Under the pieces are notes generated by a model. It searched no databases, had not been told where the DNA came from, and saw nothing but the letters and a program-made list of their open reading frames with translations. This document shows, one piece after another, positions 51,089-61,849 of a stretch of DNA of 64,000 bases. The position numbers and the translations under genes were made by a program. Numbering within the stretch: position 1 is the stretch's first letter; each line of letters starts with the position of its first letter. Origin of the DNA: Nevskiaceae bacterium (GTDB lineage Bacteria; Pseudomonadota; Gammaproteobacteria; Nevskiales; Nevskiaceae); NCBI GenBank assembly GCA_008012115.1, contig SSEB01000004.1:124001-188000 (forward strand), written 5' to 3'.

Positions 51089-53512
51089 ATGAAGGGGATT
51101 TGCCAACGCGCCGGATTCATCGGCCTGATCGCCACGGCGGCGCTGCCCGGCTGCAGCCGCAGCACCGACCCCGCGACCGCGCCGCACTTCGCCTGCGAGA
51201 CGGCACGGGCGGCCAACGGCGCCATCGTCTCGGCGCATCGCGGCGGCGCCGCCTATGCGCCGGAGAACACGCTGCCCGCCTTCCGCAACGCCGTGCGCCT
51301 GGGCGTCGATCAGTTGGAAATGGACACGCAGCTCACCGCCGACAACCAGCTGGTGATCCTGCACGACGACACCCTGGACCGCACCACCGACTGCTCCGGC
51401 GCGGTCAACGCGCAGACGCTGGCGCAGGTCCAGGCCTGCGACGCCGCCTACTGGTTCACGCCCGGCCAGGGCGTGACCGTACCGGGCACCGATGTGCCGC
51501 ACCCGCTGCGCGGCACCGGTGTGCGCGTGCCGACCTTGCGGGCCCTGCTCGACTGGTACGTCACCCTGCCCTGCGGCCGGCCGACGCTGTCGATCGAGAT
51601 CAAGAACATCCCGGGCGAGACCAACTTCGATCCCGCCGGCGACAAGACCGCCAAAGTGCTGTTGCCGCTGCTGGCGCGCTACGGCGTCGACAAGGACGTG
51701 GTGATCCAGTCGTTCTGGCCGGTCACGCTGGTGCAGGTCAAGCAGATGAACCCGGCCCTGCGCACGCAGTTTCTCACCAGCAGCGCCTCCGGCGAGACCG
51801 CCGCCGCCAATCTCGCCGATGTGATCGCCACGGGTCAGGACATCAGCGCGCCCAACTTCGACGCACCGGACTTCCTCGCGCCCGTGGTGCAGGCCGCGCA
51901 CGCCGCCGGCAAGCAGGTGCTGCCCTACACGCCCGATGCCTACGCCGACCTGCAGAAGACCCTGGGCCTGGGCGTCGACGGCCTGATCACCAACTTTCCG
52001 GCCTGTGCGCTGCAGGCGCTGGGCCGCGCCGTGCCGGCGCGCATCGCCACCGATGGCATCCCCGAGACCGCCGCCTGCCCAGACGTCTCCGCGCCGCCGG
52101 CCGCCAGTCTCGCCGACCGCCCGGACGCCGCCACCTGCGCGGCGCTGCGGCCCACGCGCTGGCTCGCCGCCACCGGCACCGCCGACGCCCACGCCCGCCT
52201 GCGGGTGGTGGGCATCCAGTACAAGCAGGAGGTGCGGCACGTCGGGAGCTATGCCAGTTTCCGCACCAAGATGCGCTGCCTGATGCAGGATCACGCGGTG
52301 CCGCTGATGCGGGCCGGGCTGCCCATGCTGGTGGTGTTCAACGAAGACATCGGTTTGATGACGCTGGCCACCGGCACGCGCGGCGCGGCGGTGCGCGAGC
52401 AGGCGGCGACGCCGCTGCGCGGCCCGCTGGGCGACCAGGTGCCGGCCGGCATCCTCACCGGCCTGGGCCTGCTCAACGCGGCGTATGCACCGCAGGTGGC
52501 CGCCTACCAGGCGATGTTCCCGGGCATCGATCCGCGCAAGCAGGTCTTCGTCGCCGCCACCGACACCTTCGCCCGCGCCTTCTCGCAGACCTTTTCCGAT
52601 ATCGCGCGCGACTACGGCGTCTACGTCGTCGCCAGCAACAACATGCCGCGCTACCGCGCCTCGCGCGATCCGGTGGAGATGGCCCTGTTCAGGGACCCGG
52701 ACCTCGCCGGCGCCGAGGAGGTCTACGTCGCCACCAGTGCGCATGTCGCCAACACCACCTTCCTCTGGGGCCCGGCCGATCTTCATCCCGAAGCGCCGCG
52801 TGGCGAAACCAACCTGATTTTCCGCAACGAGAAAGTGCCGCTGACCGACATCGAGAAAACCCTGATCGGCCTCGACGAAGGTCCGGCCACGGGCGACGCG
52901 GCCAGGGCCAATGCCGCCGGCGCGGTGGTGGCAGGCTTCCGCCTGGGCTTTGCCACCTCGCTGCCGGCCTTTGCCTGGGGCTACGACTTCGGCCAGCGTC
53001 CCGCCGGCCTGCAGCCCTGCGCCGACGTGCACCTGAGCTACATGCCGTGCATGGACAGCCTGGGCGTCGATGTCGTGGTGCAGGCGGAAGCCAACCCGGG
53101 TCGCTGGGCAGCAAACGTGAGCAAGGGCTGGCAGCCGCTGGAGTGGATGAACTCGACCTGGCGCAGCGTTGCCGAGCCGACCGTGAAGTTCCGCTACAAC
53201 ATCACGCCGATGCTGACCGGCAACCTGCTCGACCTCGCCTTCGATGGCCAGTCGGCGATCACCGCACGTGGCGCACAGCAGACGCCCCGGCACTACATCG
53301 GCAACACCGTGTTCACCGCGGGTAGCGATGCCGAGGCCTACCGGCCGTATGTCGGCGGCAAGCTGGAATTCCTGGCGCTGGCCCCCTGGGTCACCGGCGA
53401 CGCCGACCGCGATGCGCTGATCGCCACGGGCAATGCGCTGTCTCCAGGCAGCAACGCAGCGCTGGAGAACGACTATCTCGAAACGGCGGTGTGGGCCGAC
53501 CTTACGCGCTGA
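51089..53512 (+). CDS. Lipoprotein fusing a glycerophosphodiester phosphodiesterase to a nitrilase-like domain
   Basis: The 807-residue protein has a lipoprotein signal (IATAALPGC). Residues about 45-330 form a GDPD barrel with AHRGGAAYAPENTLPAF, DQLEMDTQLTADNQLVILHD and SIEIKNIPGE. From about residue 370 a carbon-nitrogen hydrolase-like domain follows, with a candidate catalytic Glu in VVFNEDIGL, a candidate Lys in RNEKVPLTD and a candidate Cys in YMPCMDSLGVDVVVQAEAN. The first activity would release glycerol phosphate from glycerophosphodiesters; the second would cleave an amide or nitrile. Both would act outside the cytoplasm. The catalytic triad of the second half is my reading and needs alignment. 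Confidence 0.8.
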   Translation: MKGICQRAGFIGLIATAALPGCSRSTDPATAPHFACETARAANGAIVSAHRGGAAYAPENTLPAFRNAVRLGVDQLEMDTQLTADNQLVILHDDTLDRTTDCSGAVNAQTLAQVQACDAAYWFTPGQGVTVPGTDVPHPLRGTGVRVPTLRALLDWYVTLPCGRPTLSIEIKNIPGETNFDPAGDKTAKVLLPLLARYGVDKDVVIQSFWPVTLVQVKQMNPALRTQFLTSSASGETAAANLADVIATGQDISAPNFDAPDFLAPVVQAAHAAGKQVLPYTPDAYADLQKTLGLGVDGLITNFPACALQALGRAVPARIATDGIPETAACPDVSAPPAASLADRPDAATCAALRPTRWLAATGTADAHARLRVVGIQYKQEVRHVGSYASFRTKMRCLMQDHAVPLMRAGLPMLVVFNEDIGLMTLATGTRGAAVREQAATPLRGPLGDQVPAGILTGLGLLNAAYAPQVAAYQAMFPGIDPRKQVFVAATDTFARAFSQTFSDIARDYGVYVVASNNMPRYRASRDPVEMALFRDPDLAGAEEVYVATSAHVANTTFLWGPADLHPEAPRGETNLIFRNEKVPLTDIEKTLIGLDEGPATGDAARANAAGAVVAGFRLGFATSLPAFAWGYDFGQRPAGLQPCADVHLSYMPCMDSLGVDVVVQAEANPGRWAANVSKGWQPLEWMNSTWRSVAEPTVKFRYNITPMLTGNLLDLAFDGQSAITARGAQQTPRHYIGNTVFTAGSDAEAYRPYVGGKLEFLALAPWVTGDADRDALIATGNALSPGSNAALENDYLETAVWADLTR

Positions 53513-53515
53513 GAC

Positions 53516-54346
53516 TCAGCGGCTACGGTAGTAGCGGCTCGGATTGAACAGATCTGGCGAGAGATCGGCGTCGATCACCGGATCGCGCAACTCGATGCGC
53601 GAGGTGCTGCCCTCGCGCAAATCCTTCAGGTTCAGCACCGTCGCCAGCCAGCGACCCTCGACCCGCTGCACGCTGTTGGGCTCGATGGTCAGGGTCTTCC
53701 AGGGCACGCCGCCGTAAAGCTCCGCACGCACCGGCAGGCACCAGTCGTCGTCGACGGTGAGATCGACACGGTCGTAGAGAATGTCGGGATCGGCCGGCGG
53801 CTGATACCGCCAGCGGGTGGCGGGCCGCGACGCCTCGGTCACCGCGCCCAGTGGCTGCAGGCGCCCGCCGCGCAGACCGCTGAACAGGAACTTGAGATCG
53901 AAGGCGGAGATGCCGCTTTCGAACAGCGACTGTGCCGTGGTGGCGCCGGTGACGTGACGCACCTTTTTCACCGAGGGCAGGTACAGGTAGTAGTCCTGAC
54001 GCTGTCCCGAACCCAGGAACAGATAGGCTGCGCCGGCAAGATCCTTGGGCGCCGTCAGGCGCAGCATGCCGTTCTGACCGTCACCGTTGATGCGCCAGTA
54101 CCAGTCGCCGGCGATGCGTCGGCGCGTGCCATCGGCTGCGGTCTGGGTGATCACGATGCTTTCCGACAGCGAACGCTGCGGCAGGCTCTTGGCGAAGCAG
54201 GTCCGCAGTTCCGTTTCGTCGGCCGCAGGTGCGGCCCCGGCGGCGCTGCACGCACTTCCCGCAGCGACGCCGGCCAGCATCGCAAAAAAGCGCGCCTTCT
54301 GCAGTGGACCCTGCAGGACCTGCCAGCGAAGGCGCGCGCGCGTCAT
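53516..54346 (-). CDS. LolA-like periplasmic protein (outer membrane lipoprotein-sorting family)
   Basis: The 276-residue exported protein has the LolA_like pattern: RLTAPKDLAGAAYLFLGSG, DYYLYLPSVKKVRHVTG and FDLKFLFSGL, with a C-terminal half-barrel ending NPSRYYRSR. Such proteins often accompany DUF1302 outer-membrane proteins and RND transporters and probably carry hydrophobic cargo. ATG 54346 is used, four bases after the DUF445 stop; an earlier ATG at 54379 would overlap that gene. It is the last gene of the seven-gene envelope operon. Confidence 0.78.
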   Translation of the reverse strand: MTRARLRWQVLQGPLQKARFFAMLAGVAAGSACSAAGAAPAADETELRTCFAKSLPQRSLSESIVITQTAADGTRRRIAGDWYWRINGDGQNGMLRLTAPKDLAGAAYLFLGSGQRQDYYLYLPSVKKVRHVTGATTAQSLFESGISAFDLKFLFSGLRGGRLQPLGAVTEASRPATRWRYQPPADPDILYDRVDLTVDDDWCLPVRAELYGGVPWKTLTIEPNSVQRVEGRWLATVLNLKDLREGSTSRIELRDPVIDADLSPDLFNPSRYYRSR

Positions 54347-54350
54347 GACA

Positions 54351-55646
54351 TCAGCCCAGGGGCAGTGCCGAAAGCACATTCATGGCCGCCTCCGGCACGT
54401 GCTTGGCGAGATGCTCCATGACGATGACCTGGAATTCACCGACGATGAAGCCGAGCGCGGCGCCGACCGCGATCAGAATCCACTCGTCCTGCTCGAAGGC
54501 CGGGTGCAGCAGCGCCTCGAACTCCTCGATGCTGAGTTCCTTCATCTTGCCGGCCAGGGTGTTTTCGAGATCCATCGCCTCGCCGGCATATTTCTCGACG
54601 TGCTTCATGGTATCGGGCAGGCGGTTCATGATCTCCTGCGACACCAAGCGCTTCATTTCCTGGTACTTGCTGCTGCCGACGGCGAACACCACCAGCGGCT
54701 TGGCGACGCCGGCCTGCTCGTCGACCACGCGCTGCACCTGCTTCTGGATCATGCCGAACAGGCGGTCGGACAGCGGGCCGCGCAGCACCGCGGCAAGGAT
54801 GTTCTGCGGCGTCACGATCTCGCGGGCGACCAGGCGGCCGTACTCCGCCGAGACCTCGGTGCGACGCTTGAGGAACAGGCCCTGCCACTCGAACAGGCCG
54901 AACAGGTACTTGGTCGGGTGCTTGGGGTTGAACACCATCTTCAGCGCCAGCCAGTCGGTGAACCAGCCTGTGAACAGACCAAAGATCGGCATGATCCAAA
55001 CGTTGTGCGTCAGCGCCCAGGTGACCGCCTGCACGCAGCCGATAGCAAAACCGAAGAACAGGCCGGAGTTGCGGATGAAGCGGAACTCGCCGTGTCCCGC
55101 CTCCAGGAAGATGCGGTTCAGCAGCGGCTTGTCTCGCAACAGGCTGCTGACCACCATGTCCTTCAGGTCGAACACCGAGTCGATGTTGTTCTTGATGTCG
55201 TTCATGATCTGCTTGACGATCAGCGGCGCTTCATCCTGGATGCGGCGGATGATCATGTTCTTCACCGTCTCCGGCGCCGCTTCCCACAGACCCGGCGAGA
55301 ACTGCGAAGCGACGCTGCGGGTGATCTCCTCAACGGCATCCAGCAGCGGCCTCTCGATCTCTTCGGCGATGCGGTCCGGGTCGAGGCGGTCGAAAATGTC
55401 CTTGGGCTTGATCAGCTTGGTCGTCATGGTGTCGCAGGCGATGCTGGCCATCACCGCCGCCTTGCGCGGCACGATCCCCTGCCAGCCCAGGTAGGGCGGC
55501 TTGCCGATGAACTCGATCGGCAGGAACATCATCTTGATCGCCACGATCTTGGTGATGTAACCGACGGTCGCCGCGACGAACGGCATGGACGCATACAGCA
55601 TCCAGTTTTCCTGAACGTCCAAAATAATCGCGTGCATGCTTTGCAT
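54351..55646 (-). CDS. DUF445 family membrane protein
   Basis: The 431-residue protein has an N-terminal membrane helix (WMLYASMPFVAATVGYITKIVAIKMMF), a paired repeat of the same motif later (FGLFTGWFTDWLALKMVFNP), amphipathic helices between them and a C-terminal helix (WILIAVGAALGFIVGEFQVIV). This is the DUF445 (YheB-like) layout. Function is unknown. AGGAGG lies upstream of the ATG at 55646. It sits between the DUF4393-like and LolA-like genes in the operon. Confidence 0.85.
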   Translation of the reverse strand: MQSMHAIILDVQENWMLYASMPFVAATVGYITKIVAIKMMFLPIEFIGKPPYLGWQGIVPRKAAVMASIACDTMTTKLIKPKDIFDRLDPDRIAEEIERPLLDAVEEITRSVASQFSPGLWEAAPETVKNMIIRRIQDEAPLIVKQIMNDIKNNIDSVFDLKDMVVSSLLRDKPLLNRIFLEAGHGEFRFIRNSGLFFGFAIGCVQAVTWALTHNVWIMPIFGLFTGWFTDWLALKMVFNPKHPTKYLFGLFEWQGLFLKRRTEVSAEYGRLVAREIVTPQNILAAVLRGPLSDRLFGMIQKQVQRVVDEQAGVAKPLVVFAVGSSKYQEMKRLVSQEIMNRLPDTMKHVEKYAGEAMDLENTLAGKMKELSIEEFEALLHPAFEQDEWILIAVGAALGFIVGEFQVIVMEHLAKHVPEAAMNVLSALPLG

Positions 55647-55700
55647 CGTTCCCCTCCTGACTTTCTATCTATAACCCTGATTCATTGCAGATCGGCGAGG

Positions 55701-56411
55701 CTAGGCCTGGGCCGGGTTGTCATCCAACTGGCAGCGATTCCACATCGCCTGCCCGAAATCGGAAATTTTCAGGCTGCGCCGCACGATGCGGCTGCGCTCG
55801 CCGCGTTTCTCGATACGGGCAATCGCCTTGCGTACGCCGTCGTCGGTTTCCAGGATCTCGTAGGCCGTCGTCTGCGTCAGATCTTCCGGCGCCGATTCGG
55901 TCAATCCCCACTGCGCCAGTTGCCGCACATACAGCGGCGTGAGCTCCAGGCCCAGCACGCCGGCAGCGCGCCCGACGCTGCAGACATACTCGACCACCGG
56001 CACCGCGGTCAGGCCCAGGCGTGACGTCGCATAGAGGTGCACCATCGGGTAAGTGGAGCCGTCGGAAAGCGCCGCCAGAATCCGCGCCTGGTCGGGGACC
56101 ATGTTGCGCAACATCGAGGCGTAATAGGCATCAACAGCCTGCTCACGGCTCTGATCGCCGGACTGCGCCAGCAGGCTGCCCAGCAGCGTGCCGGGCGCGT
56201 CGGGCCCGCGTCCGGAATTGGACACCGAAACCGCCACGACCGACACGGTCGGACTGCGTTCGAGACGATCAAGGCGCTGCTTCAACTCGCCCAGGGCAAT
56301 ATTCTCGATGCGATCGAGTTGCTCCTTGATGAAGGCGCCACCGGGCATCCGTTGCAGCAGGCGCCCCGTCAGTCCGGCAGGCTGTGACGCACCAGTCAAC
56401 TTGTTGTCCAC
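55701..56411 (-). CDS. DUF4393-like (Abi-alpha-type) protein
   Basis: The 236-residue soluble protein has helices with FIKEQLDRIENIALGELKQRL, then AYYASMLRNMVPDQARILAALSDG, which resembles the DUF4393 core (a MA..-x-SPDEAKIL-type motif), and a winged-helix-like part with VLGLELTPLYVRQLAQWGLTE. Some DUF4393 proteins are annotated as abortive-infection proteins, but the setting here, inside an envelope operon, argues against a stand-alone defence role. Family assignment is moderate. Confidence 0.5.
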   Translation of the reverse strand: MDNKLTGASQPAGLTGRLLQRMPGGAFIKEQLDRIENIALGELKQRLDRLERSPTVSVVAVSVSNSGRGPDAPGTLLGSLLAQSGDQSREQAVDAYYASMLRNMVPDQARILAALSDGSTYPMVHLYATSRLGLTAVPVVEYVCSVGRAAGVLGLELTPLYVRQLAQWGLTESAPEDLTQTTAYEILETDDGVRKAIARIEKRGERSRIVRRSLKISDFGQAMWNRCQLDDNPAQA

Positions 56412-56424
56412 GAAAAATCCCCGT

Positions 56425-57159
56425 TCATTGCGACGCGGCGGGCGTTGCGGCCGTTGACGACTGCGGGCTTTGCGTTTTCTGCAGGCGCAATGTGTTGAGT
56501 TTTAGCCGAAGATCGGCGTGCTTCACAATCACCGGAATGGGATGATCCGGCCAGCGCACGTTCAGCCCGAAGCGCGCCAGGATCGGCGTCGTGATGTCGC
56601 GCACGGCCAGCAGCCGCGTATTCAACGTCGTATCCACCGGCGCCGAGACCGTCTGATTGAAGCGCACCCCCAGCGGACCATGGTAGACCAGATGCAGCTT
56701 GGCGTTGACCGGCACCGTCAGCGCGATCGGCTGTTCGAACTTCAATGGGATCTGCGCCGAGAACGCGACGTTGCGCAGCCGCTTGACCTTCTGGTAGTTG
56801 AAATCGGTGACGCCATGAATGGTGGCCATCGTATTCACCGGTATCGCACCGCGATACTGAATCGTGAAAGACACCGGCACCACGATGTCAAAACGCGCAT
56901 CCGTGTCGTAGCGCCCGTTGAGCGGCAGGCTCAGCGTCTGCTTGAACGGCACCTTGGCATCGATATAGCCGTTGAGCTTGATCGCGATCTTGTTGCTGGC
57001 CGAGGCGCTGACCATCGTGGTCGGCGGAAACTGCACCATGCCGGGCTGATCCGACAGGGTGAATCCGAAAATCAGGTGCGCGTAAATCCAGAAGCCGAGC
57101 GCGCCGCCCGCCACCGCGAGTACGACGGTGCCCAGCCCGAACAGCGCGATCCGCCCCAT
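56425..57159 (-). CDS. Membrane-anchored beta-repeat protein, paralogue 2
   Basis: The 244-residue protein has one N-terminal membrane helix (IALFGLGTVVLAVAGGALGFWIY) and a periplasmic region built of short strands with recurring VPV/IPL motifs: FKQTLSLPLNGRYDTDARFD, VVPVSFTIQYRGAIPVNT, AQIPLKFEQPIALTVPVNAK. Its end (RLKLNTLRLQKTQ) matches the end of the upstream paralogue (RLPLSTLRLQTGD). The start overlaps the paralogue's stop by one base. I know of no named family; an extended beta sheet carrying lipid along the periplasm is one possibility. Confidence 0.65.
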   Translation of the reverse strand: MGRIALFGLGTVVLAVAGGALGFWIYAHLIFGFTLSDQPGMVQFPPTTMVSASASNKIAIKLNGYIDAKVPFKQTLSLPLNGRYDTDARFDIVVPVSFTIQYRGAIPVNTMATIHGVTDFNYQKVKRLRNVAFSAQIPLKFEQPIALTVPVNAKLHLVYHGPLGVRFNQTVSAPVDTTLNTRLLAVRDITTPILARFGLNVRWPDHPIPVIVKHADLRLKLNTLRLQKTQSPQSSTAATPAASQ

Positions 57160-57914
57160 CACTGCGCGGGCTCCGCAGGCTGGGCCGGCGCCGCGGCCGC
57201 CGGCGTGGCGGGTTCCGGATTCGCGGTATCGCCGGTCTGCAGACGCAGGGTGCTGAGCGGCAGTCGCAGATCGGCGGTGGTGATGATGATATTGGCCGGA
57301 TCCGGAATCGTCGCCTCGGCCTGCAGGGCCGACTTCACCGGCACGCTCATGCGGCTGTGAATGGGGATGGTCGCGGCGATATCCGCCTTCAGCGGCACTT
57401 CCAGTGCCTGCACCAGGCGAACGTCTGCCGGGGCGTTGAACTTCAGGTGCACGTTCTGATCGACCGGGATGTTCAGGTTGATCGGCACCGTCGCCTTGAC
57501 CGGAATCTTGCCGCGGATCGGCAGATCGTGGGTATCGCCCAGCAGATCCGCCTTGATCACCGTATCCACGTCGAGCACCTGGTCGATGGTGATCTTGTCG
57601 TGCACCGGCACCGTCATCTTGATGGGAATGTCGTTGTCGAAGCTGGCCTGGACATGCAGGACGTCCTTGATCGGAATCTTGATCACCTGATCGACCGGCA
57701 CTGTCGTGGTGATGGCATCGTTGATCTCGATGTCGAGATCGTTGAGCACGTCGGCACTGATCGCCACCGGCTGCGGCACGATCACCGTCGCCGGCTGATT
57801 GGTCAGCATCAGGCGGGCATCGATATTGCGTAACACCCACCAGCCGATCACGACACCGCCGATCACGGCACCCACGACGATCAGCAGGCCGGCACGGAAC
57901 ATGACACGGTTCAT
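57159..57914 (-). CDS. Membrane-anchored beta-repeat protein, paralogue 1
   Basis: The 251-residue protein has an N-terminal membrane helix (MFRAGLLIVVGAVIGGVVIGWWV) and a strikingly periodic periplasmic region. Units of roughly 20 residues repeat a two-strand pattern: VPVDQVIKIPIKDVLHV, IPIKMTVPVHDKITIDQVL, LPIRGKIPVKATVPINLNIP, VPLKADIAATIPIHSRMSVP. The C-terminus is a disordered Pro/Ala-rich tail. The strand periodicity suggests a regular beta solenoid or groove. It is coupled to its paralogue by TGATG and follows the DUF1302 gene by 18 bp. Confidence 0.65.
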   Translation of the reverse strand: MNRVMFRAGLLIVVGAVIGGVVIGWWVLRNIDARLMLTNQPATVIVPQPVAISADVLNDLDIEINDAITTTVPVDQVIKIPIKDVLHVQASFDNDIPIKMTVPVHDKITIDQVLDVDTVIKADLLGDTHDLPIRGKIPVKATVPINLNIPVDQNVHLKFNAPADVRLVQALEVPLKADIAATIPIHSRMSVPVKSALQAEATIPDPANIIITTADLRLPLSTLRLQTGDTANPEPATPAAAAPAQPAEPAQ

Positions 57915-57932
57915 TTTCTTGATTCCCCTGGA

Positions 57933-60152
57933 TTAGAAGCGCATGCCGAGGCTGACCGAAAAGAAATCGCGGTCGTTGAGGGTATTGCGATTGCCGCCGC
58001 CGAACAGGAAGGTCTGCGTCACGCTTGCGTCGAGGGCGCCGTAGGCGAAATGCACGTCCACCACACCCAGTTTGCGCCCCCGCAGGAAATTCTCGCCGAG
58101 TCCCGGCGAGACGCCCGATACGTCATGCGTAAACACCAGGAAGGGCCGCACATGCAGGCCTGGGATCAGCACATCGGTGTAGTGCAGCATCGTGCCGAGG
58201 CGATAGCCCCAGGAAAACGGCGTCACGTACCCACCGGTATTGCGGATCGGATTGAGATAGAGCGAATTGCCCGAATCGGAAGCGCCGGGTCCGGCATGGG
58301 TGTCGGTGCCCGGCCCCTCGAACTGCAGACGGCTGGGAGACGGAAGGTTCGGGACCCAGATATCGGTGAACTCCGCCAGCAGCAGGGCGTCGTTGGTCCC
58401 AAGGAAATCGCTGTTGCCGAAAATCTTGGTCAGGCCGAGGGAGCTCTGCAACACCCCCAGGCGCTCGTAACCGCGGATGTACTGGCCGGGTCTGATCTCG
58501 CCGGGCTGACCGCCACGATATGCGGTTACGAAATCGGGGATGCGCCGCGAGCCGGGCACCGTCAGATTCGTCGCGTTGGGCGTACTCGCCAGCGTCTGCA
58601 AGGCGGTGATCGCGCTCGGCAGATTACCGGCCTCGCTGGCTGCAACCGAGAGCGCGTTGCTCGGATCCTGTAGCGCGGAAATCAGCCCAGGCAGCGTGGT
58701 GCTGGCACCTACGCCGAACAGCGGAATATCGCGCCGGGGCAGCGCCGGCTGCAGCGCCGCAAACAGCACATCCTCCAGATCGACCTGCACCGGCTGGTTC
58801 GGCCGGTAGGCAGCCTCGCCACGCACGGCGACACCGCCGATCACCGTGCTGAAACTCAGGCCGATCAGGTGGATGTTGTCGGGGTAGTCGAGAAAATAGT
58901 GCGCGGTATCCAACGGCACCGCCTCGCGCACATGCGCACCGGGCGCGCCGCAGGCGGCGATCAGCGAGGTGAGGTCGACGGCGTCGATACCGGACGGGTT
59001 GCCCTCGCGACGCAGGCAACTGGCCGCAGCGGCGGTGGCACTCGCCGTCGGAATGCGCGCGTGGTAGTTGGCGTAATACAGCCCGATTTCGGACTGATCC
59101 AGCCAGGTCGGGTGGTAGTAGAGCGCCGCGCCGTACTGCCCCATGTCACGCGGCTCATGGTTGGCGGAACGGCTCAGCGTGAAGCTGGTGTTGGTCAACA
59201 GCGCGAAGACCTTGTTGGCCGGCGTGCCGATCTGCAGGGGATCGTAGGGGGCCTTGGCGAACGGCGCGATGATACCTTCATGCGGCGTCACTTCGTTGCC
59301 GGCGTTGAAGAACGAGATGTAGGCGCCACGCGGCGGCAATTCCACCGGCCGCCACTCGAACTGGTAGAACCCTTCGCTGCTCAGTTCGTCGTTCAACGGC
59401 GCGCGCACGATGAGCATGCCCTCGGGCTTGTAGACCTCGTCGAGGTCCATGCCCGGGCGCGTCAGGTTGTTGGCATCCGGAGGATTCAGGAAGTTGAGGC
59501 TTCCCTGAGTCACGAAAGTGGATTCGCCCCAGACCATGCGCTGGCGGCCGATACTGACATCGACCGCACGCCCCCCGAGATCGAACGTGTCCTGCACATA
59601 GGTGTCGAGCAGTTGCACGTTGTAGCCGATGTCGCGCAGGGTCTGACGCGGACGCTTGTTGCGCACCGGCACGCCATGCTCGGGCCCGGCCTGCACCACT
59701 TCGTTCGGGTGGTTCTCCTCCAGCGTCGCGTTGACATAGTCGTAGAACGCGAGGAACCCGGTTTCCAGTTTCAAGGAACCGCTGCGTGCGGTGAAGCCCG
59801 AGGTCCACTTGATCGGCGAGGCGATCGGATCGCCCTTGTCGTAGTTGAGATCGCCCTCGTCGTAGACCGAATTCTTCGCGCCGGGCGCGGCGAGATAGCG
59901 GTTGTTGGGCGCGCTGTTGTTCGGGTCGGCCGTCAGGCACTCATCGGCCGCACACAGACTCGGATCGAGATTCGACTTGCCGATCAACTGCGCATTGCGC
60001 CCTTCCGTGCGCCAGGCGGCGCCGACGGTGATGTGATTGTTCCAATCGAACGTCCAGTCCTCGATACCCAGATCGAGGTTCATGGCGGCTGCCGGACTGC
60101 AGATGCCGCCCAACGTCGCCGTCGCCAGGCAGAGCCCTACCAGACGCCTCAT
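57933..60152 (-). CDS. DUF1302 family outer-membrane protein
   Basis: The 739-residue protein has a signal peptide (RRLVGLCLATATLGGICSPAAA), starts the mature part with LDLGIEDWTFDWNNHITVGAAWRTEGR, has GRQRMVWGESTF and EVTP-type segments, and ends in FSVSLGMRF with the C-terminal Phe. These are DUF1302 features. DUF1302 proteins are predicted large barrels often linked to uptake or export of hydrophobic compounds such as sterols and hydrocarbons. It overlaps the DUF4282 gene (ATGA). Confidence 0.88.
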   Translation of the reverse strand: MRRLVGLCLATATLGGICSPAAAMNLDLGIEDWTFDWNNHITVGAAWRTEGRNAQLIGKSNLDPSLCAADECLTADPNNSAPNNRYLAAPGAKNSVYDEGDLNYDKGDPIASPIKWTSGFTARSGSLKLETGFLAFYDYVNATLEENHPNEVVQAGPEHGVPVRNKRPRQTLRDIGYNVQLLDTYVQDTFDLGGRAVDVSIGRQRMVWGESTFVTQGSLNFLNPPDANNLTRPGMDLDEVYKPEGMLIVRAPLNDELSSEGFYQFEWRPVELPPRGAYISFFNAGNEVTPHEGIIAPFAKAPYDPLQIGTPANKVFALLTNTSFTLSRSANHEPRDMGQYGAALYYHPTWLDQSEIGLYYANYHARIPTASATAAAASCLRREGNPSGIDAVDLTSLIAACGAPGAHVREAVPLDTAHYFLDYPDNIHLIGLSFSTVIGGVAVRGEAAYRPNQPVQVDLEDVLFAALQPALPRRDIPLFGVGASTTLPGLISALQDPSNALSVAASEAGNLPSAITALQTLASTPNATNLTVPGSRRIPDFVTAYRGGQPGEIRPGQYIRGYERLGVLQSSLGLTKIFGNSDFLGTNDALLLAEFTDIWVPNLPSPSRLQFEGPGTDTHAGPGASDSGNSLYLNPIRNTGGYVTPFSWGYRLGTMLHYTDVLIPGLHVRPFLVFTHDVSGVSPGLGENFLRGRKLGVVDVHFAYGALDASVTQTFLFGGGNRNTLNDRDFFSVSLGMRF

Positions 60153-60631
60153 TTCGTATCCCCGCCTTCAGCACTCCCCTCAGGCGCTGCGCGACGGCGC
60201 GACCGCCAGAACTGGATACGGGGCAAGGGCAGATCCTCGACGCGCTCGGCGATGCTTTCGGTCTGCCCGCGCAAGGTGTGCAGCTGCTCCATCAGGGTCT
60301 CCATCAGCAGGACGATGCGGAACAGGCTCAGCAGCGATTCGAGAATCACGCGCACGGCGATCAGGCCGACGACGGTGCCGATGGGCATGATCAGCAACAG
60401 CCAGCTCAGGCCCGAAACCAGCGAGAGCTGGAAAGCCTGGATGGTGAGAAACAGATTGATCGCAACAATCCCCGCAGACAGGAACACGTAAATGGCCGGC
60501 GCCATCGTCGTGGTCATGATCGTTCGGAGTTGCACGTCGCCCAGATTGCGCAGAACCCCGACGCCTTCCTCGCGCAGCGTGCGCCAGCCGTTTCCCGCGG
60601 CGGCATCCGCCTGCTCAGCATTCTTGTCCAA
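60149..60631 (-). CDS. DUF4282 family small membrane protein
   Basis: The 160-residue protein has two membrane helices (PAIYVFLSAGIVAINLFLTI and LSWLLLIMPIGTVVGLIAV) and the DUF4282 signature RVILESLLSLFRIVLLMETL. The start is taken as TTG at 60631, eight bases after GGAGGT; no suitable ATG lies near. It leads the seven-gene operon and overlaps DUF1302. Its role is unknown. Confidence 0.75.
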   Translation of the reverse strand: MDKNAEQADAAAGNGWRTLREEGVGVLRNLGDVQLRTIMTTTMAPAIYVFLSAGIVAINLFLTIQAFQLSLVSGLSWLLLIMPIGTVVGLIAVRVILESLLSLFRIVLLMETLMEQLHTLRGQTESIAERVEDLPLPRIQFWRSRRRAAPEGSAEGGDTK

Positions 60632-60811
60632 GAGATGAAACCTCCAATCGCACGGCAGATGCCCGATGGCGACCAGAAGCACCCCGGGAGCCGCGAATTC
60701 CCTGGCGGCGCATGCGCGCCGCGGTTTTCGCTGTTATGTCCTCAGGATACCTTTATCCTTGACATCAAATAATGGCATCATGGGTCACAAAATTAGCATT
60801 TTGGGACATCG
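60632..60811. promoter_or_regulatory. Divergent control region between the envelope operon and the AraC gene
   Basis: This 180-bp region is AT-rich near the AraC side and contains TTGACA (near 60755) and a quasi-palindrome AAAATTAGCATTTT. It must carry both promoters. The inverted ATGTCC ... GGACAT pair flanking the AT-rich part could be a regulator site. Boxes are not certain. Confidence 0.35.
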
Positions 60812-61849
60812 ATGCCGCTGCCCTGGCCAATCAAACGTCACATCTGCAATGTCCGCATCCTCACGGAAGTGGCGTCCGAGCATGACATCGGCCTGCACGT
60901 CAGCCTGGCCGGGACGGCCGTGGATCCCGCCGCGCTGGACAGCCACGATACCTACGTCAGCATCGATGACGAACTGCGTGTGGCGCGCAACCTGCTGGAC
61001 AGACTGGGCGACCATATCCCGCTGGGTCTGGAGGCGGGTTCGCGCTACCACCCCACCACCTTCGGCGTCTGGGGCTTCATGATCTTGTGCAGCCCGACCG
61101 TGCGCAGCGCCATCGACGTCGGGCTGCGCTACCTGGCCCTGACCTCGTTCGCCTGCCACATGCAGGTGGTGGAGCGCGACGATGAAGTGCTGGTGATTGC
61201 GGATGACCGTCACCTGCCTGCAGACCTGCGTCCTTTCCTGGTGGAACGCGACGGCGCCACGCTGATGAGTCTCGCGCGTGACGTCCTGCCGCCGGATTTG
61301 TCTTTCACCCGCCTGGAGGTCCGCCAGCCGCGCTCGCCACACGATGCGCTGACCACGGCTTTTTTCGGCCGCGCCATCGACTACGACCAGCCACGCAACT
61401 GCGCCGGTTTCGACCGTGCGCTGATGAGCCGTCGCCTGCCGCAGGCCGATCAACCGATGCGCCGGCGCTTTGAAGCCGAATGCCAGCGTCAGCTGGCGCA
61501 TTTCGCCGGCATGGACCACGTGGTCAGTCGCGTCCGGGATCGCCTCCTGGCCAACCCGGACCGCATCCCGACCATGGACATCGTCGCGCAGGAGATGAAA
61601 ATTACCGCGCGCACCTTGCGCCGGCACCTGGCCGACAGCGGCACGCAATTCGAGGCCCTGGTCGATCATGTCCGGCAGGACGTGGCGGAACGTCTGCTGA
61701 TCCGCACCGAGCTGGCCATCGCCGACGTCGCGGAGCGCCTTGGTTATTCCGAGTGCGCCTCCTTCATCCGCGCCTTCAAGCGCTGGAAATCGGTCACGCC
61801 GCGCCAGTACCGCATCAGCGCGCTCAACGGCGCCCCCGACAACGCCTGA
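60812..61849 (+). CDS. AraC-family transcriptional regulator with arabinose-binding-like N-terminal domain
   Basis: The 345-residue protein has an N-terminal effector domain (LGLEAGSRYHPTTFGVWGFM, PTVRSAIDVGLRYLALTSFA) of the type found in OruR/ArgR-like regulators, and a C-terminal double helix-turn-helix (TMDIVAQEMKITARTLRRHL, IADVAERLGYSECASFIRAF). It is divergent from the seven-gene envelope operon and is its most likely regulator, responding to an unknown small molecule. Confidence 0.92.
   Translation: MPLPWPIKRHICNVRILTEVASEHDIGLHVSLAGTAVDPAALDSHDTYVSIDDELRVARNLLDRLGDHIPLGLEAGSRYHPTTFGVWGFMILCSPTVRSAIDVGLRYLALTSFACHMQVVERDDEVLVIADDRHLPADLRPFLVERDGATLMSLARDVLPPDLSFTRLEVRQPRSPHDALTTAFFGRAIDYDQPRNCAGFDRALMSRRLPQADQPMRRRFEAECQRQLAHFAGMDHVVSRVRDRLLANPDRIPTMDIVAQEMKITARTLRRHLADSGTQFEALVDHVRQDVAERLLIRTELAIADVAERLGYSECASFIRAFKRWKSVTPRQYRISALNGAPDNA

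Follow-up and report, generated by a model that had tools for sequence, protein, structure and literature searches.

The seven minus-strand genes running from 60631 to 53516 of the window (the whole 64,000-nucleotide stretch analyzed here, positions 124001-188000 of contig 10 in the 3.25-Mb draft genome of a Nevskiaceae bacterium) may encode a DUF1302-based conduit for hydrophobic compounds, in which a pair of β-ribbon proteins replaces the RND pump; we judge this reading about as probable as its negation. Comparison with related loci supports the view that the seven-gene cluster is a true functional unit. A sequence-only reading of this DNA had described the genes, their places and their families, and gene coordinates and Pfam matches agree with it, the family then called DUF4393 now being Abi_alpha. 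The features are as follows.

60149..60631, minus strand: DUF4282 small inner-membrane protein, 160 aa, TTG start (PF14110, 30.5 bits)
57933..60152, minus strand: DUF1302 outer-membrane β-barrel, 739 aa (PF06980, 469 bits)
57159..57914, minus strand: betaA, an N-terminal TM helix and an alternating β-repeat body of ~200 residues; unnamed family
56425..57159, minus strand: betaB, a betaA paralogue with the same architecture
55701..56411, minus strand: Abi_alpha (formerly DUF4393), no TM helix predicted (PF14337, 103 bits)
54351..55646, minus strand: DUF445 inner-membrane protein, operon paralogue (PF04286, 52 bits)
53516..54346, minus strand: LolA_like periplasmic protein (PF17131, 76 bits)
60812..61849, plus strand: AraC-family regulator, divergent (PF12625 and HTH_18)
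60770..60811, plus strand: non-coding block just before the AraC gene, candidate operator or promoter, TAATGGCA..ATGrGyCA..GCATTTkGGGACA

The Pfam matches to DUF4282, DUF1302, Abi_alpha, DUF445, and LolA_like each exceed the curated cut-off. The DUF4282 and DUF1302 genes overlap by 4 nt and betaA and betaB by 1 nt, with gaps of 4 to 54 nt between the remaining genes. Hydropathy predicts 2-3 TM helices in the DUF4282 protein, and the DUF1302 barrel protein has a signal peptide and a C-terminal F. The LolA_like gene has its start codon at 54346 or 54379; its product has solved relatives (9tp6, 3bk5, 4z48) and scores 11 bits against the Pfam DUF1329 profile, under the cut-off. Convergent with this gene lies that of an 807-aa GDPD-family protein (window 51089-53512), no relatives of which were labeled in neighbor loci.

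The sequence-only reading had staked its proposal on the seven families occurring together in other genomes, and this held in many genomes and several orders. A search for betaB in 100 relatives found it in 27 genomes, whose neighborhoods were then gene-called and labeled, and scanning named genomes brought in Solimonas, Nevskia, Panacagrimonas, Polycyclovorans, a Salinisphaeraceae MAG, Zhongshania (which belongs to an order other than that of the window genome), and two Burkholderiales contigs. Across 26 loci from 26 genomes, six of the seven families are jointly present in 17 and all seven in 12. Counted singly in the same loci, betaA is found in 26, betaB in 25, DUF1302 in 23, DUF445 and Abi_alpha in 22 each, LolA_like in 18, DUF4282 in 16, and the AraC regulator in 7. 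Solimonas and Nevskia share the gene order of the window; in Panacagrimonas, the Salinisphaeraceae MAG, Zhongshania, and others the order is reshuffled or the set is split into divergent halves, with most of it retained. The Salinisphaeraceae MAG and Zhongshania carry most of the families, and LolA_like is absent from the Zhongshania and L041 loci. Since the families remain together elsewhere despite changed order and strand, their clustering is not a matter of chance, and persistence through such changes is hard to explain other than by joint function. The pairwise distances of the gene families correlate at 0.74 to 0.95, which partly reflects species phylogeny. We found no paper that pairs DUF1302 with DUF445 and none on Solimonas with DUF1302.

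The earlier picture of one seven-gene system holds insofar as the families co-occur, but the set is not indivisible and resolves instead into two or three modules. Judged by gene content across loci, the constant core is DUF1302-betaA-betaB. These three genes stand alone in L041, where the remaining families are absent, and the two Burkholderiales contigs carry the β pair alone, with no DUF1302. On the same grounds, Abi_alpha and DUF445 make up a module of their own, two genes that can occur without the core: Abi_alpha adjoins DUF445 in nearly all loci examined and in 17/17 further Abi_alpha loci (L072-L088), in which no β genes were labeled, and the pair is found as neighbors in genomes that lack β genes. 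Across 85 genomes of the order, Abi_alpha is present in 51 and DUF445 in 78, and the window genome has a second DUF445 copy near rpoH.

The presence of Abi_alpha raises a different explanation, that this is an anti-phage or abortive-infection locus with the membrane proteins as effectors. The family match itself and a weak PADLOC candidate match (PDC-S47, E 3e-8) speak for it, and a paper on phage resistance in E. faecalis (PMC6356687) reportedly mentions AbiAlpha/DUF4393 many times. Against it, PADLOC identified no recognized defense gene set in the cluster, its weak single-gene candidate matches falling on Abi_alpha alone and the other six proteins matching no model. Abi_alpha is moreover bound to DUF445 in every one of the further loci, and neither a DUF1302 barrel with a signal peptide nor a LolA-like protein would be expected in a defense system. 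We consider a defense function very improbable.

Other genes lie beside these modules. Oxidored_FMN (L035, L047, L065), sulfite reductase with TauE (L024), TetR with OEP (L028), and T6SS genes (L065) recur as neighbors but vary from lineage to lineage, and are not counted as parts. The FMN oxidoreductase/Pyr_redox_2 fusion lies near β genes or the LolA-like gene in three contexts (L035, L047, L065). PF10118 'Metal_hydrol' genes adjoin betaA in one locus (L034:8012-8935) and Abi_alpha–DUF445 in another (L075:4301-6064), and in L073, L074, and L076 two genes of comparable size lie before Abi_alpha–DUF445. Directly after the minimal set in L041 is an OmpA-domain protein (L041:11151-12158).

The barrel of the core belongs to a clade of its own. 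In a DUF1302 tree built from 15 operon proteins together with 7 of the 13 DUF1302 proteins that the window genome encodes elsewhere, the operon proteins, Zhongshania among them, fall on one side of a single branch with support of 100/100, and the 7 others sit outside this clade. The operon barrels thus constitute a dedicated subfamily, inherited along with the β genes.

The β proteins themselves are paralogues (hhalign 100%, E 4e-40 over 235 columns) whose proline positions are mostly common to both. BetaA has no significant match in Pfam or NCBIfam, and betaB has none in NCBIfam, the one profile scan made for it. In each, a single membrane helix at the N-terminus precedes a body of ~200 residues, which by the positive-inside rule would be periplasmic. 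Hydrophobic and polar residues alternate in these bodies with hardly an interruption, at a phase score 14 to 25 SD above composition shuffles in nearly all members tested (one betaB reaches 6), and when 919 proteins from the fetched loci were ranked by alternation the highest 60 were exclusively betaA or betaB. In the best 120-residue window the copies studied here reach 0.35 and 0.29 and those of Zhongshania 0.26-0.27, against a background maximum of 0.108; among E. coli controls TamB reaches 0.187, YhdP 0.075, and YdbH 0.029, with LptA, LptC, and MlaD at ~0. Such strict alternation, a sequence result independent of any structure model, argues for very long amphipathic β-strands in betaA and betaB.

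AlphaFold models were built from the window protein with 16-19 relatives, using window and named-contig sequences only. At low confidence (pLDDT 58 and 50 for betaA and betaB, pTM ~0.24), they draw no compact fold; the helix is followed by two antiparallel strands of 40 residues in betaA or 57 in betaB. By simple arithmetic a 57-residue strand would be ~19 nm long, comparable to the width of the periplasm. A PDB fold search with both low-confidence models gave no meaningful match: among the top matches listed are pore-forming toxins such as lysenin and aerolysin, phage collar and tail proteins, spike chains of SARS-CoV-2, and parts of flagellar rings, all at TM-scores <=0.16 and taken to reflect long hairpins only. 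A PDB sequence search gave no match for betaA, and for betaB gave VgrG and RXR at E 0.033 or worse, which we judged to be chance. Kinship of betaA with YnbE was likewise rejected (weak Pfam match, E 0.011; hhalign probability 1%), hhalign found no homology to TamB (0.7% probability for the betaA profile), and betaA has no AsmA match in Pfam. We propose, tentatively and as the less probable outcome, that betaA and betaB are the first members of a new class of putative bridge across the periplasm. Such a bridge would be a hetero-oligomeric tube or groove of β-ribbons that needs no pump, leads from the inner membrane to the DUF1302 barrel, and has no sequence relationship to AsmA/TamB, Lpt, MCE, or RND proteins.

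An outer-membrane barrel combined with an alternating β protein anchored in the inner membrane is also the general layout of TamAB, YhdP, and YdbH, and TamB is the closest of the E. coli controls in alternation. The cluster might accordingly serve envelope maintenance, moving phospholipid or assembling outer-membrane proteins and handling no foreign compounds. Its distribution is unlike that of housekeeping genes, however: betaA is found in 26/85 genomes of the order and is missing from many close relatives, including a genome of the same genus (G001), and only 3/369 genomes drawn from the class have it, the window genome being one of the 3. So patchy a distribution is more in keeping with an accessory function, in metabolism or tolerance, than with a housekeeping one. 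With hhalign also detecting no homology to TamB or YnbE, we regard envelope maintenance as unlikely.

For the conduit reading, the central question is that of the pump. As the sequence-only reading had stated, the cluster contains no RND pump gene; none of the cluster proteins scanned against Pfam has an MMPL match, and the nearest RND-like profile match is weak (43 bits) and lies ~8 kb away. A COG4447/YCF48 protein is likewise absent among the scanned cluster proteins (betaB by NCBIfam). A link to pump-containing loci comes from an extra gene pair, X72 (72 aa) and X450 (440-485 aa), present in four related loci. In Panacagrimonas, X72-X450 follows betaB. In the window genome (L122:2814-10047), genes for DUF1329, a YCF48-like protein, MMPL, X72, and X450 lie in series, and the DUF1329-YCF48-MMPL composition is that of AmeBCD (PMC6394551). 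That X72-X450 accompanies β loci as well as this cassette suggests that betaA and betaB take the place of the pump and its adaptors. The proposal of hydrophobic transport is thus strengthened by the DUF1302/LolA precedent of AmeABCD (PMC6394551) and by accessory genes shared with an AmeBCD-like cassette, from which we still infer transport itself. A further link to hydrophobe transport is found in L047, where a betaA relative is divergent from an MMPL and LolA_like pair.

The same evidence can be turned toward another reading, in which the cluster is a DUF1302/LolA RND system that is incomplete because its MMPL pump lies elsewhere in the genome, betaA and betaB then being membrane-fusion-like adaptors and no passive bridge. 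The window genome is rich in MMPL genes, so a pump could act in trans: it has 28 MMPL profile matches, 14 DUF1302 genes, and 18 LolA_like matches within 3.25 Mb, with LolA/DUF1329 matches numerous. MMPL sits with X72-X450 in L122, and the arrangement of the betaA relative beside MMPL and LolA_like in L047 keeps a pump working with the β proteins as an alternative. On the other hand, no MMPL was identified in the examined operon clusters of Nevskiales and Zhongshania, where neighboring genes were partly scanned, and other DUF1302 genes of the window genome do have MMPL nearby. We hold a pump in trans to be rather unlikely. In its own right, the count of DUF1302, MMPL, and LolA_like genes in this genome represents a large stock of hydrophobe-transport genes.

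The divergent AraC regulator noted earlier is present at 60812-61849, but it accompanies the genes in only 7/26 loci and so is no fixed component. The non-coding block before it is conserved at the same place in 5/5 aligned AraC-type loci. A scan of 53400-60900 for sigma-70 consensus promoters gave 0, where shuffles average 1.2.

Returning to the DUF1302-based conduit, the barrel, the β pair and, in most loci, the LolA-like protein are inherited together, and their cargo would be lipid or hydrocarbon-like hydrophobic molecules carried across both membranes. BetaA and betaB would bridge the periplasm in the form of long amphipathic β-ribbons, their hydrophobic face making up a groove or tube. 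They would exchange substrate with the DUF1302 barrel in one direction or the other, and the LolA-like protein would act as a soluble acceptor or adaptor. The pair would thereby substitute for the RND pump and adaptors with which DUF1302 barrels work in systems of the AmeABCD type. Abi_alpha–DUF445 and DUF4282 may provide a platform or gate at the cytoplasmic face of the inner membrane, and AraC with its conserved upstream block may govern expression in part of the lineage. Such a conduit could import hydrophobic growth substrates or maintain outer-membrane lipid. How hydrophobic compounds cross the Gram-negative envelope without a pump is an open question, to which AsmA-like bridges are the main recent answer. 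If the conduit reading is true, a DUF1302 barrel with two small β-repeat proteins would be a second, independent solution, DUF445, DUF4282, and Abi_alpha would acquire functional partners, and the DUF1302/β system would be small enough to be rebuilt in the laboratory.

Among known systems, the roles of TamB, YhdP, and YdbH are the subject of PMC8593681 and PMC11014939. TamAB and the AsmA-like bridges YhdP and YdbH share with the window operon a barrel and an alternating β protein anchored in the inner membrane, an anchor that is predicted for betaA and betaB. However, betaA has no sequence homology to TamB, betaA and betaB are ~250 aa each and paired, and the barrel is DUF1302 rather than TamA/Omp85. 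The Pseudomonas putida proteins PP_0765/PP_0766 (DUF1302/DUF1329), which are required for growth on Tween20 and predicted to form a complex (PMC10866462), resemble the operon in combining a DUF1302 barrel with a LolA-superfamily partner; they differ in having a periplasmic protein and an efflux transporter (PP_2018/PP_2019) as partners and no β pair. Pairs of MMPL and LolA_like genes share PF17131 with the window operon, which itself has no MMPL gene. AmeABCD of Castellaniella defragrans, which protects against monoterpenes, consists of DUF1302, a DUF1329/LolA-superfamily protein, COG4447, and an HAE3 RND protein (PMC6394551). The window operon lacks the RND pump and the COG4447/YCF48 protein and instead has betaA/betaB, Abi_alpha-DUF445, and DUF4282. 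Like AmeABCD, it has a DUF1302 outer-membrane barrel, together with a periplasmic protein that probably belongs to the LolA superfamily, and X72-X450 accessory genes occur with AmeABCD-like cassettes and β loci alike.
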